Origin: a bacterium
GTDB taxonomy: Bacteria; JAMOTN01
Direction of reading: 5' to 3'
Length of the DNA: 13,724 bases
Assembly: GCA_027062325.1 (NCBI GenBank)
Contig: JAMOTN010000004.1
Location: 1 to 13,724, forward strand
The position numbers and the translations under genes were made by a program. The notes beneath the pieces were generated by a model, which ran no database searches, was not told where the DNA came from, and saw only the letters and a program-made list of their open reading frames with translations. Shown here piece by piece: positions 470 to 6,685 of this stretch (position 1 is the first letter of the stretch; each line of letters opens with the position of its first letter).

Positions 470-2236
470 TTATTCTTCTTCTTTGTCAATTCCGAATGAG
501 ATTAAGAAGTTGCGTATATCATTCCTTGTGAATGGATAGCGGGGGATGAGCGTTTTGAATTGAGAGGGAAGAGTTAACTCTACACTTAAGCTTTCTATAG
601 CAGCTTCGAATTCACCCTGTATATCTTCTACAAAAGCGGCGAGTTGAGAAGCATGCTCTGTTAGGAAAAAGTTGAAAACTGCTTTTGGACACAGACCTAG
701 GTTTTCGCTCATAGCACTGAAAATTAGAAGGTAGCGGCTCAGTTCCGTAACGGGACCTTTTTTGCTCAAGTCGTAGTTGTGGAGTTGTAGAATTCCGGAT
801 GTAAATGAGTAAAGAGGAAGATAGTCAAATGTTGGTACTGGAGAGAGGGAAAGATTAGCAGCAGTGTGTAATTCATTCGAAGTTGATACAACACTGAAAC
901 TTTTAAAAGATGTGGATGGAATCATGTTGAATAGGTGATTTAAGATTTGAGGAGACAATTTTACAGCTTCTTGAGAAGAGATTCTTGAAGCAGCTTCTAT
1001 GGGAGATAGGCTATTTTCAAGCCAGTATTGAATTTCAGCTAAGGTTTTTGCTTCATCTGAAAATGAAAAGAACAAAAGATCTTCCAAGGTAGGAACGGGA
1101 AGGGTTCCTTCAAAGTGAAGACGTCCCAGACACTTTATACTACAGCCAAAACAGCCAAACTTTTCTCTTTCTTCAAACAATTGATACATTCCGGAAGATA
1201 TAGGACGACTTATAGCTCCAGTATCGTTTAATTTTTCTACTATTGCAAGATCAGAATAGAGTGGAAGTCCCACTTCTAAAAATTCTGAAAGTATGGGAAT
1301 ATCAAGTTCTGGAAGTTGCGCACGCTCTACAGCGATTGCTAGCAGATTTTTCTTTGCAAAGGCGAAAGCTGCTCCCCCTCTTGCTCCATAGCTTGTGAAG
1401 TTTCCGTCACGGTGGAGGATAACAGATGAAAATGTTTTAAAGGGACCCAGGTGAAGGAGTGAGTAGTCTGCTACTAGAGATTCGATAAATGAGGCTTCCT
1501 CACCTTCAATTTCAATGAAATCAATTCCGGATTTGGTAATTAGTAGAACTGTAGGTTTGGATGCAGTGCCTGTTATTTTCAGCACTGGGATTTTAAGTTG
1601 AGCTAAGTGTTTCCCAAGGTTTCCAACCATCTTAGCAGAATAAGTTAAGAAATTGTTGTTTACTACTACACTAAAACCACCTGTCAGATTTGCAGCGTAC
1701 TTTGAAAGCTTTCCAGCAAAGATTACTATTGATCCTTTTGAAGCTTCTTTTAAAGCAAATGATCTACGGTTTGCTGGTAATTTTTCAAGTTTGAATGTTT
1801 TGGAAGAAAGGTCTATGTAACAGGCTGCGTCTTCTGAGTGAGTAAATAGGATGGGGGCTTCTTCTGTGAAAAAGATTACGTTTGCAATGGAAGAGGCTAA
1901 GTCCTTGTATTTTATGGGGATTAAGAATTGAATTTGAGTGTTAATGGAGGATAACTCCTCTATTTCTTCTCGAATTCTAACTATATCTCTGTGCTCAAAG
2001 TTTACAAGATTTGGAATAAAAGCTACAATGTCAGCGCCATTTCTGATGGCAAATTGAGCTTCAACAAGTTTTGCATTGACAGGGCTTATACCCCATGGAT
2101 AACCTATTACGGCAACAATTTTGAAACCTTTCTCCTTCAAGGAAGTTGCGTCTTTTACACAAGCTGATACAGTGTATATTAACTTACCTACTGGCTTAAA
2201 ATTTGTGTCCAGAGCAACAAATTTTGGTGTTATCAT
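470..2236 (-). CDS. DeoC-like domain fused to a shortened aldehyde ferredoxin oxidoreductase (AOR)-like domain
   Basis: This protein of 588 residues appears to have two parts. Residues about 15-110 align with the neighbouring Deo[15 protein letters not shown] matches [14 protein letters not shown], then AIRNGAD matches AIKNGAT, and IREEIEEL matches the equivalent helix. The Asp of the DeoC active site is Ala here, and the region that would carry the Schiff-base Lys is absent, so no aldolase activity is expected. From about residue 139 it follows the AOR family: a [15 protein letters not shown] opening, [28 protein letters not shown] at 284-303, [10 protein letters not shown] with Cys362/365/369, and ENLGLC with Cys516. 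These match the four [4Fe-4S] ligands of AOR. The AOR part is about 450 residues instead of about 600, and the Arg of the S-G-R motif is replaced (TGGF). It is the last gene of the operon. ATG starts in ATGA overlap with deoC, with no close Shine-Dalgarno, so translation is probably coupled. Substrate and activity are unknown. Confidence 0.75.
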
Positions 2237-3075
2237 GATCTTTTAAGCTCTGCCTCCTCTTTTGCAATCTTGACGCCTGAACTAGTTCCCAGTCTATTTG
2301 CACCTGATTTTATCATCTTGACAGCGTCTTCGTAACTTCTGATTCCCCCTGCAGCTTTGACTCCCATCTCTTCTCCTACAGTTTTTCTCATGAGAAGAAC
2401 ATCTTCAGCACGTGCTCCCCAAGATCCGAATCCAGTAGAAGTTTTTACGAAGTGAGCACCTGCTGCTTTTGAAATTATGCAAGCGGTGATTTTTTCTTCA
2501 TCTGTTAAGTAGCAGCACTCTATTATTACTTTGACAACATTTCCGGATGCTGCTTTTACGACTTCTTCAATATCATGCTGAACAGCTTTGTAATCCTTAT
2601 CCTTGAGGGCTCCAATGTTTATAACCATGTCTATTTCTGTTGCACCGTTTTTTATTGCCTCCTCGGTTTCCTTTGTCTTTGCATAGGTTGTAGTTGCTCC
2701 AAGGGGAAATCCGACCACTGTGCAAACGTCAATCCCTGTCCCAGATAAAACTTCTGAGCAGAGTTTAACCCAGTAAGGATTTACACATACACTTGCAAAA
2801 CGATACATTTTTGCTTCTTCACATAGTCGCAATATATCGTTCTTTTGAGCAGTTGGTTTTAAAAGAGTGTGATCTATCATTGCGGCAACGTTTACGTTGA
2901 GTGTTTCGCCGCGTTTAATGTAAGGCGTTTTGTAGTAGCTGGTTAATCTGTCTTCTGATGAGGTTATGCGCCGTGATACTTTAGCTCCTTCTGAAGCTGA
3001 AAAGTTGAGACCGCCTTCTTTCAATGGAACTGAAAAATCAAGGTTGTTGAGAACTTTTCTTATTTCTGCGTCCAT
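2233..3075 (-). CDS. deoC: deoxyribose-phosphate aldolase with N-terminal extension
   Basis: DeoC cleaves 2-deoxy-D-ribose-5-phosphate to acetaldehyde and D-glyceraldehyde-3-phosphate through a lysine Schiff base. The class I aldolase barrel begins at about residue 63 ([13 protein letters not shown]). It has VCVNP at 96-100, VVGFPLG at 120-126, the catalytic Asp149 in EIDMVINIG, the Schiff-base Lys211 in HFVKTSTGF, and Lys240 in GVKAAGGIR. All three key residues are present, so the enzyme should be active. At 280 residues it exceeds the usual length of about 220-260 by a 62-residue N-terminal extension. That extension starts with a short, possibly amphipathic helix ([11 protein letters not shown]) followed by a polar linker, the arrangement typical of microcompartment encapsulation peptides. 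The ATG at 3073-3075 follows a strong GGGAGGG site and overlaps the upstream vertex-protein gene by 16 bases. Its TGA overlaps the start of the AOR-like gene. The extension's role is inferred from context. Confidence 0.93.
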
Positions 3076-3350
3076 TTTCTTCCCTCCCTATACACCTCAT
3101 CAACTATACCTATTATGCCATATATGAAAGGTGCTTCTTTGTCACCTAATATGGATTGAACGCTTCCTCCTTCTTTTATGAAAAGGACAATGTCTCCTAC
3201 TCTGGCACCTACAAAGTCTATCATAACTTCACTCTTACCAGTTGAATTTAAATTGATATCCAGCACCTCTACTAAGAACAAACGCTTGTTTTTAAGTTTT
3301 CCTATCTTCTCATTCAATACGACTTCTTCTTTAACACGGCCGAACTGCAC
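3060..3350 (-). CDS. BMC-P vertex protein 2 (EutN/CcmL family)
   Basis: EutN/CcmL proteins form pentamers that cap the vertices of bacterial microcompartment shells. I take the GTG at 3348-3350 as the start. A GGGAGG lies at 3358-3363 with a 7-base gap, just after the TAA of the upstream vertex gene. The resulting 96 residues match the usual family length. An ATG further upstream (3407) would add 19 residues overlapping the previous gene and lacks this site. The product opens with FGRVKEEVV, then [24 protein letters not shown] (family pattern D-x-V/I-G-A-G-x-G-D-x-V), and ends near [10 protein letters not shown]. The pattern agrees with a beta-barrel core. It is clearly divergent from its neighbouring paralogue, so the two may form distinct pentamers or a mixed one. 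It is the third gene of the operon. Confidence 0.9.
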
Positions 3351-3357
3351 AGTATAT

Positions 3358-3363
3358 CCTCCC
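3358..3363 (-). promoter_or_regulatory. ribosome binding site deciding the start of vertex protein 2
   Basis: GGGAGG on the minus strand follows directly after the TAA of the upstream vertex gene and lies 7 bases before GTG at 3350. This fixes the start at GTG and gives the normal family length. Confidence 0.75.
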
Positions 3364-3645
3364 TTATTTGGTTCCTTCTTTTTTTCCAGACTTGTCGACG
3401 ATTCCAATTATTGTGGCATCAGAGGGTACTATGCGCTCTGGAAATACGAGACCTGCTTCGAGGCCCCCAGTGGTCATCACAACATACTCACCATAGCCTG
3501 CACCTATTGCATCTGTTGCTATTAAAAAATTACCTGTTTCTTTCAACTCTTCATTGAGTTCTTCTACAAGGAGAAGAGCCTTGCCTTCAACCACTGGATA
3601 AAGATAAGAAGGTGTCACTTTACCAACTACTTTTCCAAACTTCAC
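3364..3645 (-). CDS. BMC-P vertex protein 1 (EutN/CcmL family)
   Basis: This pentameric microcompartment vertex protein has 93 residues, the standard family size. It begins FGKVVGKVTPS, continues with ALLLVEELN and ATDAIGAGYGEYVVMTTG (the conserved D-A-I/V-G-A-G-x-G-E/D segment), and ends with ATIIGIVDK, the canonical I-x-G-I-V-D strand. All family landmarks are in the usual order and spacing. The start is GTG at 3643-3645, in GTGA overlap with the stop of the RpiB-like gene, and an AAAGGAG site lies inside the end of that gene. It shares only the family core with the second vertex protein downstream. No hexameric shell gene lies nearby, so the shell facets must come from another locus. Confidence 0.93.
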   Translation of the reverse strand: MKFGKVVGKVTPSYLYPVVEGKALLLVEELNEELKETGNFLIATDAIGAGYGEYVVMTTGGLEAGLVFPERIVPSDATIIGIVDKSGKKEGTK

Positions 3646-4484
3646 ACTATCACGAACTCCTTTCCTAAATCTTTGGCGATGTCTCGAGCAAGCGGAGTAA
3701 TGATAGTTTTCTTAGTTATAGGAATTTGATTTCCCTTCCAATGCTTTACAGTTTCCTCTGATACGAATTTTAAGGGTTGCATGGATGAGTTTAGCTGCGA
3801 ATTGGTATTATTTACCAACTGACGCTTGACGTTTTCAATTTTTGCTTCTAGTGAAGTTGGTTCTTTTAGACTACTGGGTGTATTACAAAATGGAGAGGTA
3901 CACTCTTCAGGTAGAGAGTTTATGCCATAAGGATCAGAACGACTAGAGAAAATTTTGGACGTTGTATTTGGTAGTAAGTTGTTTACAGAATAAGCAGATG
4001 CTGACGATGCTTCTTTTGCTACAATTTGTGCTTGAAATAGAACACGGTTTTCAATTGCGGTTATTTTGTCCACTCGTCTTGTATGGCGTCCACCTTCAAA
4101 TTCAGTAGTTAAAAATGTTTCTACTACCCTTTTGGCAACCTCTTCACCTATAACACGTGACCCCATGGTCAGCACGTTTGCGTTGTTGTGGGCGCGTGCA
4201 TTGTAGGCTGAGAATATTTCATTGCAGCAGGCTGCTCTTATTGTTGGAATTTTGTTGGCAACCATTGCGCTTGCAACTCCGACTCCATCAATCATTATTC
4301 CAAATTCAGCTTCCCCGTTCGCAACTTTCAGTGCAACTTGAATGGCAAAGTCGGGATAATCAACAGATTCTGGGGAATGGGTGCCAACATCTATTACTTC
4401 AACTGAAAATTTATCAACTATCCATTTTTTCAATTTCTCCTTTAATTCGAATCCACCGTGATCAGAGCCTATGACGATTTTCAT
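3642..4484 (-). CDS. RpiB/LacAB-family sugar-phosphate isomerase with BMC-associated C-terminal extension
   Basis: Residues 1-148 form a complete RpiB-type fold: SDHGG with Asp8/His9, GIMIDGVGVASAMVANK at 62-78, RAHNNANVLTMGSRVIG with His99, and GGRHTRRVDKI with His134/Arg137. RpiB enzymes interconvert ribose-5-phosphate and ribulose-5-phosphate, or related aldose/ketose phosphates. The base Cys66 of Escherichia coli RpiB is Asp here, and the following G-T-G-x-G is G-V-G-V-A, so substrate or mechanism may differ. The family is usually about 145 residues, whereas this protein has 280. A Ser/Asn-rich linker (about 150-237) leads to FVSEETVKHW and TIITPLARDIAKDLG (260-274). I recall an I-T-P-x-A-R-D-x-A-x-x-L-G tail from other microcompartment-associated proteins, which suggests docking or encapsulation. 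It is the first gene of the minus-strand operon. The ATG is preceded by GAGGTGG 8 bases away. The family is certain; the substrate is not. Confidence 0.88.
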   Translation of the reverse strand: MKIVIGSDHGGFELKEKLKKWIVDKFSVEVIDVGTHSPESVDYPDFAIQVALKVANGEAEFGIMIDGVGVASAMVANKIPTIRAACCNEIFSAYNARAHNNANVLTMGSRVIGEEVAKRVVETFLTTEFEGGRHTRRVDKITAIENRVLFQAQIVAKEASSASAYSVNNLLPNTTSKIFSSRSDPYGINSLPEECTSPFCNTPSSLKEPTSLEAKIENVKRQLVNNTNSQLNSSMQPLKFVSEETVKHWKGNQIPITKKTIITPLARDIAKDLGKEFVIV

Positions 4485-4613: not shown

Positions 4614-5363
4614 TTGAAAGTAGCGCTTTTGGTGAAGGGAACACCTGTTGAACTAAGACCGACCAAAAGTGGTGGATATGTAAGAGAAGAATTAATATTA
4701 AATGAGACAGAGTTGAGTGCAGCAGGTTTTATTAACAAACTTTGTGCAGCAGTTAATGATGTGACGGTAGATGTCGTAAGTATGGGGCCAGAGGTTAATA
4801 CTGAGGTAATTGTTCAGGCAGCGAGCGTGTTTGATGAGGAGTTGTGGGGGGAATTTTATCTGCTTTCTGATCCGCGGCTTAAAGGTTCTGATACTTATGC
4901 GACGTCTAACGTGCTGGCTTCTTTTCTAAAAAAGAAGAATTATCAACTTATTCTTACTGGAAGTTACACTCAAGATAGTGCTACTTCTTTTGTACCTGCT
5001 CAGATTGCTCATATACTTGGTTATGCTTTTGCTGGTGATATAGTTGAAATTGTGGAAGTTAGATCTGAATATGTGCATTTAAAAGCTGGAGAAAATTGGT
5101 TAGATGAGATGAAAGTTAAGTATCCTGCTTTGCTTGCCTTTGCCCCTTCTAAAGTAGCAATAAATTTTGGTAGAATAGCAAAGGCGTTGAAAAGGGAAGT
5201 TAAAGTTATAGAAGGAGACGAAATAGAGGTCAAACCTTCCTTGACGGAGGTTGTTGCTGTAGAGAAGATTAAGTTTGAGAAGAAGGCGGAGAAAATAGAA
5301 GGGGATGTGTTGGAGAAGGCTAAGAGGGTATTGGAGATAATCAAAGGAGGGGAGGAGTTATGA
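4614..5363 (+). CDS. electron transfer flavoprotein beta-subunit-like protein (EtfB/FixA family), no EtfA neighbour
   Basis: The 249-residue product has the adenine-nucleotide-binding Rossmann-like ETF domain. It opens KVALLVKGTP (family K-I-x-V-x-V-K-x-x-P). The middle segment GSDTYATSNVLASFLKKKNYQLILTG runs into SYTQDSATSFVPAQIAHILGY, matching the family's (G-A-D-T-x-A-T-A…L-x-G-x-x-A-x-D-x-x-T-x-x-V-x-P-x-x-A-x-x-L-G) core. YPALLAF and INFGRIAKALKREVKV then correspond to the conserved lPall…iAkaKK region. The usual N-P-F/Y-D-E segment is N-E-T-E-L here, so it is a divergent member. EtfB normally pairs with an adjacent EtfA carrying FAD, but none is in the window. The TTG start follows AGAGGTGAT at normal distance. 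The stop overlaps the ATG of the aminotransferase (ATGA), so the two are co-translated and probably work on one substrate. The electron donor and acceptor are unknown. Confidence 0.8.
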   Translation: MKVALLVKGTPVELRPTKSGGYVREELILNETELSAAGFINKLCAAVNDVTVDVVSMGPEVNTEVIVQAASVFDEELWGEFYLLSDPRLKGSDTYATSNVLASFLKKKNYQLILTGSYTQDSATSFVPAQIAHILGYAFAGDIVEIVEVRSEYVHLKAGENWLDEMKVKYPALLAFAPSKVAINFGRIAKALKREVKVIEGDEIEVKPSLTEVVAVEKIKFEKKAEKIEGDVLEKAKRVLEIIKGGEEL

Positions 5364-6685
5364 AAAGACCAGAAATAAAAACTCAGCTTCCTGGACCGGA
5401 GGCAAAGAAAATTTTGGCAGATGATGAACTGTTTATTTCTCCATCATATACTAGAAGTTATCCCATGGTTGCCAAAAAAGGGAATGGATGTTGGGTAGAA
5501 GATGTTGATGGTAACACTTACCTTGACTTCAATGCAGGAATTGCTGTTTGTTCAACTGGACACTGTCATCCAGAGGTTGTAGAGGCTATAAAAAAGCAAG
5601 CAGAAGAGTTAATTCACATGTCAGGAACTGATTTTTACTATCCTCAGCAAGTTGAGCTTGCCAAAAAACTTGCGGAGATTGCCCCAGGTGATAATGCCAA
5701 GCGTGTATTTCTTTCCAACTCTGGTGCTGAGGCAAACGAAGCTGCGATAAAGCTTGCTCGTTATCATACAAAGCGTCAGTATATTATAGCTTTCTACGGA
5801 GCTTTCCACGGTAGAACTTACGGAGCAATGAGCCTTACTGCTTCCAAGTATGTTCAAAGGAAGCACTTTGCTCCTCTTGTTCCTGGCGTTATTCACGTAC
5901 CATATCCAAATCCATATAGACCTCCATTTTCAAAAGATGTTTCACCTGAAAAGGTTGCGGAAGAGGTAGTTCAATTTATTGAGGAAGTTGTATTCAATAC
6001 TGTTGCTCCGGCAGAAGAAGTGGCGGCTATAATAGCGGAGCCAATTCAGGGAGAGGGTGGTTATGTTGTTCCGCCGGATAACTTTTTCCCACTTTTGAAG
6101 AAGTTGTGTGAAAAGTATGGAATCTTGCTTATAATTGATGAAGTTCAGGCAGGAATGGGAAGAACTGGTAAAATGTTTGCAATTGAGCACTTTGGAATAG
6201 AGCCTGATATAATTAGCGTTGCAAAAGGTATCGCTTCTGGTATGCCTTTGGGTGCTACAATTGCTTCTCGTGACGTTATGGATTGGCCTCCAGGGGCTCA
6301 TGCGACTACTTTTGGAGGAAATCCAGTATCTTGTGCAGCTGCGCTAAAGACAATAGAGCTTCTTCAAAATGAGTTGATTGAGAATGCGGCACGTCAGGGT
6401 GAGTACTTACTTGGAGAGCTTAAGAAGTTTATGGATGAATTTGAGTTCATAGGAGATGTTCGTGGAAAAGGTTTGATGATAGGTGTAGAGATAGTCAAAG
6501 ATCGTGAGACCAAAGAAAGGGATGGTGCATTGCGCGATAAGATCGTTGATGAAGCATTTCGTAAAGGTTTGTTGCTTCTTGGAGCTGGTGCAAATGTTAT
6601 AAGATTTTGCCCACCACTTGTAGTTACTAAGGAAGAGATAGATGTTGCACTTGAAATCTTGCGTGATGTTATGAAAAGTGTTTAA
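5360..6685 (+). CDS. class III PLP-dependent aminotransferase (4-aminobutyrate/ornithine aminotransferase type, or related amino-acid racemase)
   Basis: This fold-type I enzyme uses pyridoxal phosphate. Visible landmarks are CWVEDVDGNTYLDFNAGIAV, SNSGAEANEAAIKLAR (119-134, phosphate cup), FYGAFHGRT (145-153), AEPIQGEGGY (226-235), IIDEVQAGMGRTGK with Asp260 (pyridine-nitrogen contact), VAKGIASGMPLG with the Schiff-base Lys289, TFGGNP and VRGKGLMIGVE. Its 441 residues are normal for the family and it looks fully functional. VPYPNPYR and the GDVRGKGLMIGVEIVK stretch recall the archaeal (Thermococcales) 4-aminobutyrate/ornithine aminotransferase and broad-substrate racemase group more than bacterial ArgD. 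Sequence reading cannot tell whether it transaminates an omega-amine or racemises amino acids. It is translated in ATGA overlap with the etfB-like gene, preceded by GGAGGGGAGG, and ends before a terminator. Confidence 0.9.
   Translation: MKRPEIKTQLPGPEAKKILADDELFISPSYTRSYPMVAKKGNGCWVEDVDGNTYLDFNAGIAVCSTGHCHPEVVEAIKKQAEELIHMSGTDFYYPQQVELAKKLAEIAPGDNAKRVFLSNSGAEANEAAIKLARYHTKRQYIIAFYGAFHGRTYGAMSLTASKYVQRKHFAPLVPGVIHVPYPNPYRPPFSKDVSPEKVAEEVVQFIEEVVFNTVAPAEEVAAIIAEPIQGEGGYVVPPDNFFPLLKKLCEKYGILLIIDEVQAGMGRTGKMFAIEHFGIEPDIISVAKGIASGMPLGATIASRDVMDWPPGAHATTFGGNPVSCAAALKTIELLQNELIENAARQGEYLLGELKKFMDEFEFIGDVRGKGLMIGVEIVKDRETKERDGALRDKIVDEAFRKGLLLLGAGANVIRFCPPLVVTKEEIDVALEILRDVMKSV

Follow-up and report, generated by a model that had tools for sequence, protein, structure and literature searches.

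A DeoC-AOR fusion protein encoded in a sugar-phosphate microcompartment operon: a possible cargo adaptor derived from two enzymes

Introduction

The last gene of a bacterial microcompartment (BMC) operon encodes a protein that begins as a shortened DeoC aldolase and continues as a relative of aldehyde oxidoreductases (AORs). This raises the question of whether such a protein, located next to an intact DeoC, is still an enzyme or has become a part of the organelle with a different role. To our knowledge, there is no experimental model for BMCs of the sugar-phosphate (SPU) type, and the exit of reducing equivalents from metabolosomes is an open question. SPU microcompartments are defined by DeoC, RpiB and shell genes (PMC4207490, PMC8217296) and are among the most widespread BMCs, with more than 280 loci in 26 phyla (PMC8217296).

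Genetic organization of the operon

The analyzed window comprises the whole of contig C4 (13,724 bases), which is part of a 1.65-Mb genome of 81 contigs with a completeness of 84%. The genome collection used for comparison contained no relatives of the source genome below the rank of domain. Five overlapping or abutting genes extend on the minus strand from position 4484 to position 470, in the order RpiB, BMC-P, BMC-P, DeoC and fusion:

3642..4484, minus strand: RpiB sugar-phosphate isomerase with a C-terminal extension of ~135 aa ending IITPLARDIAKDLGKEFVIV (PF02502, 189.4 bits)
3364..3645, minus strand: BMC-P vertex protein (EutN/CcmL; PF03319, 72.5 bits)
3060..3407, minus strand: BMC-P vertex protein (EutN/CcmL; PF03319, 61.7 bits), start position uncertain
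2233..3075, minus strand: DeoC of 280 aa with the full catalytic set (TIGR00126, 282.7 bits; D149, K211 and K240 invariant)
2233..2236, minus strand: ATGA overlap of the fusion start and the deoC stop, translational coupling (ORF coordinates)
470..2236, minus strand: fusion gene (588 aa; N-terminus derived from DeoC, the rest from an AOR), which closes the BMC operon

The N-terminal extension of DeoC (~60 aa) begins with a helix resembling an encapsulation peptide (EP), as judged by inspection.

Tails similar to that of RpiB were observed at the ends of the RpiB ORFs of four other BMC loci (L156, L112, L161 and L162), and are absent from most of the other sampled SPU loci. The C-terminal extension of RpiB also weakly matches the C-terminus of PduM/TIGR02536; the tail is possibly a shell- or cargo-binding element. 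Divergently from the BMC operon (window positions 4614-6685, plus strand), an ETF-beta-like gene overlaps a gene for a class III aminotransferase (acetylornithine-type family), and no ETF-alpha gene is adjacent to it.

Integrity of the fusion gene

The sequence-only reading of this DNA had interpreted the region 470-2236 as a fusion of a truncated, catalytically dead DeoC domain to a shortened AOR domain. Comparison with both parents using hhalign bore out the composite nature of the protein, and the following features were distinguished within its gene:

1862..2236, minus strand: DeoC-like domain, residues 1-125 (DeoC-guided AF2 model, whose fold matches are DeoCs)
1946..2146, minus strand: statistically certain DeoC stretch, residues 31-97, with the catalytic Asp replaced by Ala72 (hhalign, E 2.9e-8)
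1124..1822, minus strand: AOR-derived stretch, residues 139-371, from AOR domain 1 through CxxCxxxC (hhalign, E 1.1e-7; AFOR_N)
1373..1387, minus strand: GARGG motif, residues 284-288, opposite GRGG of 1AOR (alignment to 1AOR)
1130..1153, minus strand: CFGCSIKC with Cys362, Cys365 and Cys369, opposite the [4Fe-4S] ligands C288/291/295 of 1AOR (hhalign, MAFFT)
473..1123, minus strand: residues 372-588, in the place of AOR domains 2-3; AOR similarity undetected in the shuffle test
689..706, minus strand: ENLGLC, residues 511-516, possible vestige of the D-x-x-G-L-C motif that holds the fourth cluster Cys (hhalign, E 0.24; opposite DSAGLC of 1AOR)

Since the genome is fragmented and incomplete, the ORF might be an assembly or frameshift artefact uniting two genes in a metagenome-type contig. 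However, the 588 codons, starting with ATG, form a single uninterrupted reading frame, and no in-frame ATG, GTG or TTG that could start a separate AOR is present between codons 90 and 200. The GC3 values before and after the junction are alike (0.32 vs 0.30; 0.26-0.32 in other genes of the window), and GC1, GC2 and GC3 of the whole gene are coding-like and equal to those of its neighbours. Moreover, the AOR homology starts ~15-40 residues past the last DeoC-like strand. Given the absence of an in-frame start near the junction, the uniform base composition and the ATGA overlap with deoC, it is unlikely that two separate genes have been joined. Of the outcomes that could have undermined the earlier reading, neither a missing AOR or DeoC match nor, as judged from the assembled contig, a frameshifted join was encountered, and an artefact is very unlikely, the least credible of the explanations considered here.

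The DeoC-derived N-terminal domain

A search with the deoC model TIGR00126 gave a match at fusion residues 30-92 (28.7 bits, far under the cut-off of 117.3), and phmmer analysis of solved structures with the fusion as query returned nine DeoCs and nothing else. When residues 1-140 were compared with 30 DeoCs using hhalign, residues 31-97 were aligned (95%), with the motif pairs VIGYPWG/VVGFPLG and AIRNGAD/AIKNGAT in register. The HMM score of the DeoC part was 37.2 bits, whereas none of 500 shuffles exceeded 6.5. Thus, of the DeoC likeness originally placed at residues ~15-110, the stretch 31-97 is secured by alignment, while the wider region 1-125 is seen only via a DeoC-guided model.

This model (AF2; residues 1-140) was guided by 44 DeoC fragments spanning strand 2 to helix 4, as the C-terminal DeoC segments were scattered in a longer version of the guide alignment. 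It reached a pLDDT of 77, with low confidence past residue ~125, and contains strands at residues 5-9, 39-44, 70-73, 102-107 and 120-123. In a Foldseek search the top 50 matches were all deoxyribose-phosphate aldolases, and VIA-align gave a Z of ~10 over 120 residues (rmsd 3.3). Because the model leans on the DeoC guide rows, this fold match is partly circular, and the shortened N-terminus appears compatible with a partial DeoC fold, but not more. Folding of the full-length fusion by AF2 without relatives gave a pLDDT of 35, and this model was excluded from fold searches.

On strand 4, the catalytic Asp (D149 in the adjacent DeoC, invariant in the alignment) corresponds to Ala72 of the fusion. 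No match was found in the fusion for the Schiff-base Lys (strand 6), the proton-relay Lys (strand 7) or the phosphate-site strands, the hhalign alignment stopping at residue 97. The loss of the active-site Asp and of the Schiff-base Lys region, noticed previously, is thereby confirmed and, with its catalytic residues gone, the domain is predicted to be incapable of cleavage.

The DeoC part shares ~26% identity with the DeoC encoded next to it; foreign DeoCs are equally close or closer. An origin of the fusion by recent duplication of the neighbouring deoC was rejected on these grounds.

The AOR-derived part

The AFOR_N model (PF02730) matched fusion residues 169-304 (30.0 bits, cut-off 29.8). 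Comparison with 16 AORs using hhalign extended the similarity to residues 139-371 (94%), the alignment ending on CFGCSIKC, with the CxxCxxxC motif in register, and the HMM score of this stretch was 18.7 bits (shuffle maximum 4.1). No Pfam match to PF01314 (AFOR domains 2-3) was detected in the fusion; in its own genome this model finds only an AOR encoded on another contig (C80). Similarly, residues 372-588 gave no HMM match to AOR, and their mean alignment score against AORs (11.0) was within ~1 SD of that of shuffled sequences (9.1 +/- 2.1). The claim that an AOR domain makes up the rest of the protein therefore holds for residues 139-371, but residues 372-588 are not demonstrably AOR-like. 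With this reservation, nearly all details of the earlier reading stand.

The fusion and the Pyrococcus furiosus enzyme (1AOR) share 21% identity over 419 columns, and the AOR part is ~155 residues shorter, in good agreement with the ~150 residues first estimated to be missing. In a MAFFT alignment of the AOR set, C288/291/295/494 of 1AOR correspond to C362/365/369/516 of the fusion, and the active-site acids E313, E332, D338 and D489 correspond to Glu 385, 401, 407 and 511; this residue mapping is tentative past residue 371. R76, the link between cluster and pterin, is replaced by G187, in line with the loss of an arginine already noted, and N93 is replaced by K202. H448, an active-site residue, lies opposite a gap, in a region outside the statistically supported alignment.

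Retention of all four cysteines, as well as of the GARGG and ENLGLC motifs, had also been proposed. Cys362, Cys365 and Cys369 are in register in the hhalign alignment and GARGG aligns to GRGG of 1AOR, whereas Cys516 belongs to ENLGLC, the best hhalign stretch within residues 372-588, whose alignment to DSAGLC of 1AOR (E 0.24) is statistically unsupported. Since this region is also devoid of detectable AOR signal, a role of Cys516 as the fourth cluster ligand is no firmer than plausible. Overall, the fusion has largely kept the Fe-S site, and its tungstopterin site has undergone severe changes.

The AOR of its own genome resembles the AOR part no more than other AORs do; it scores below several foreign AORs, and a duplication of the genome's own AOR was therefore rejected as the origin of the fusion. 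Kinship to the fusion was no closer for divergent AOR-like genes that score low with AFOR_N (L197-L199).

Distribution of the fusion

The DeoC-AOR fusion is known from a single incomplete genome. Scanning 84,980 species with peptide patterns revealed no relative of the fusion, and protein searches in 59 and 386 genomes across Bacteria identified only plain DeoCs and plain AORs. Viral contigs contained neither a relative of the fusion nor an AOR, and no relative was present in the phyla to which two lineages with a high GltX score belong, represented by only 7 and 6 genomes. In 79 BMC loci (those with shell genes among the DeoC contigs and BMC-P-containing regions retrieved), the only fusion-like proteins were the resident DeoCs, and none of these loci had an AOR gene. 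All these searches rest on a single divergent query, which remote homologues would escape, and the lineage is simply under-sampled.

The fusion is also unmentioned in the main texts of two BMC surveys (PMC4207490, PMC8217296), in which the word ferredoxin does not occur. In agreement with the sequence-only reading, the literature and sequence searches thus point to an architecture that is undescribed, as far as searched, in the setting of a known kind of organelle.

A single known occurrence, combined with the absence from both parts of many residues that are invariant elsewhere, would be expected of a decaying gene, i.e. a recombinant between a copy of deoC and an aor gene, in which stops have yet to accumulate. 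This explanation is at odds with the stop-free frame, the ATGA coupling to deoC and base composition at all three codon positions. The low identity to the neighbouring DeoC (see above) also argues against it, since it indicates that the fusion is old and not a fresh duplicate, and in the absence of selection a reading frame would not remain open for so long. We therefore consider decay improbable, although less so than an artefact.

Other microcompartment genes of the genome

Judging from gene content, the fusion operon is a satellite of an SPU-type BMC whose other parts are encoded on three further contigs. Contig C76 encodes a BMC-H, the third BMC-P of the set and an AldDH whose N-terminus is EP-like, contig C35 a BMC-T of the tandem type together with a homologue of PduS, and contig C53 a PduL that likewise has an EP-like N-terminus, its gene being located beside that for acetate kinase. 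A single organelle of this type would thus be spread over at least four contigs (C4, C35, C76, C53) as satellite loci. Only one BMC-H gene was found in this incomplete (84%) genome.

The BMC-T of contig C35 is nearest to PduT-type structures (E 1e-31 to 1e-36) and retains the pore motif as CAGKF, and the PduS homologue retains both 4-Cys motifs. A pore Cys motif of PduT (C-P/S/A-G-K/R/S-Y/F) and the interaction of PduS with PduT have been described (PMC6325248). Directly upstream of this gene pair is an ORF whose 193-aa product is Cys-rich at one end (CEFPYCC; L018:7267-7848, contig C35); no relative of this protein was found in Pfam, in the PDB or among the BMC loci sampled.

DeoC, AldDH, PduL and acetate kinase make up a full core pathway that does not require the fusion. 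AldDH and PduL take acetaldehyde to acetyl phosphate and, therefore, no AOR step is needed. The full-length AOR of the genome is encoded away from the BMC genes, beside a 4Fe-4S ferredoxin (contig C80). Although this AOR is complete, no match to MoaA (PF06463) was detected in the genome; given its 84% completeness this absence is weak, and it reflects either an assembly gap or an unusual cofactor supply.

These data bear on whether the fusion is still a W- or Mo-dependent aldehyde oxidoreductase whose active site has been remodelled. Such an enzyme would oxidize some of the acetaldehyde, yielding acetate, and deliver electrons via its [4Fe-4S] cluster to PduS/PduT; its DeoC domain would bring it to the source of the aldehyde. 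The surviving cluster motif, the Glu residues at all four acid positions and the aldehyde-producing neighbour are consistent with this, as is the complete AOR elsewhere in the genome, from which it follows that the lineage uses AOR chemistry. On the other hand, the replacements at the Arg76 and Asn93 positions, the loss of His448, the ~155 missing residues and the unrecognisable C-terminal 217 residues speak against catalysis, AldDH and PduL already cover the job and, as a weak additional point, MoaA was not found. A retained oxidoreductase activity is accordingly doubtful in our estimation.

Predicted role of the fusion

The fusion is probably active neither as a DeoC nor as an AOR, as far as its residues reveal. 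Our preferred explanation is that it serves an SPU-type BMC as cargo or as an adaptor and consists of a dead, shortened DeoC domain on a degenerate AOR, with docking, an Fe-S cluster and a function as redox scaffold; the probability of this reading is estimated at roughly 0.4. It is favoured because the core pathway does not require the fusion, the DeoC part cannot cleave and residues needed by an AOR are lost, and because the protein retains a segment still identifiable as part of the adjacent enzyme, together with a motif for cluster binding.

The fusion sits directly behind the active DeoC in the operon. Docking to DeoC, or a channelling of aldehyde, had been put forward as a possible role in the sequence-only reading, which makes no mention of a BMC locus. 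Its DeoC-like domain may dock on the EP-bearing DeoC or on the DeoC oligomer, by which the EP-less fusion would be carried into the shell; as the operon is a BMC locus, such docking would serve the building of organelle cargo. The AOR-derived part may hold a [4Fe-4S] cluster but no functional tungstopterin site, within an organelle whose shell carries an Fe-S pore of the PduT type. The protein would then act as a redox-active scaffold close to the aldolase that produces acetaldehyde, with electrons passing to or from PduS/PduT; this last step is the least certain.

Several observations weigh against this cargo-adaptor function. With a single sequence, conservation or purifying selection has no second copy from which it could be read; the fourth Cys is statistically unsupported; and the Glu residues opposite the active-site acids of 1AOR (E385, E401, E407, E511) would also fit a modified active site. 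Furthermore, the DeoC-like domain lacks some helices and strands and, consequently, may fail to present the DeoC oligomer interface.

A purely structural scaffold, in which a DeoC mimic and an AOR-derived fold would organize BMC cargo with neither metal cluster nor electron transfer, would account for the degradation of both active sites and for the divergence of the C-terminal part past recognition. There are precedents, since dead enzyme domains have been proposed as BMC scaffolds in the case of the GRM1 AldDH (PMC4207490) and CcmM (PMC8580825). The CxxCxxxC motif has nevertheless stayed in register within a highly diverged protein, which argues that the cluster is still in use. We rank this explanation level with a remodelled oxidoreductase, ahead of gene decay and, lastly, of an artefact.

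Within the preferred cargo-adaptor reading, it is conceivable, if speculative, that the fusion follows a CcmM-like principle: a dead DeoC fragment together with a de-cofactored AOR bearing a [4Fe-4S] cluster would form an adaptor that nucleates the DeoC cargo and wires the core to the PduS/PduT electron exit. Recruitment through an enzyme-mimic domain is known from the SSUL modules of CcmM (PMC8580825), and PduO/PduS are EP-less cargo that is piggy-backed (PMC6325248). The fusion may be regarded as a concrete candidate for cargo assembly and redox wiring in SPU microcompartments, and as an unusual case in which two metabolic enzymes gave rise to one, probably non-catalytic, part.

Comparison with known systems

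Compared with DeoC/DERA (TIGR00126), the fusion keeps the sequence from strand 3 to helix 4 and, in the DeoC-guided model, the fold. It differs by the Asp to Ala replacement, by the lack of the Schiff-base Lys and the phosphate-binding strands, and by a domain length of ~125 residues instead of ~210.

With the P. furiosus AOR (1AOR; PF02730/PF01314) it shares the domain-1 similarity of residues 139-371, the CxxCxxxC motif in register and the GARGG/KNL motifs. In contrast to this enzyme, the fusion is ~155 residues shorter, has lost Arg76, Asn93 and His448, has unrecognisable domains 2-3 and carries a DeoC fragment at its N-terminus.

Like CcmM of beta-carboxysomes (PMC8580825), the fusion is a BMC protein in which an enzyme-mimic domain is joined to a domain derived from another enzyme. 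The analogy is functional only; the two proteins are not homologous, and binding of DeoC by the DeoC-like domain is putative. The Fe-S conduit formed by PduS/PduT in PDU/GRM microcompartments (PMC6325248) has its counterpart in this genome, which encodes both homologues with their Cys motifs kept; the fusion would add to it an Fe-S protein of AOR origin, unfamiliar in that system.

The gene content resembles that of SPU BMC loci (Axen 2014, PMC4207490; Sutter 2021, PMC8217296), with which this genome shares a DeoC-type aldolase with an N-terminal extension, RpiB, several BMC-P proteins, an acylating AldDH, PduL and a PduS/PduT-type pair. Unlike in those loci, the genes are distributed here over at least four contigs, and the DeoC-AOR fusion is an additional component.
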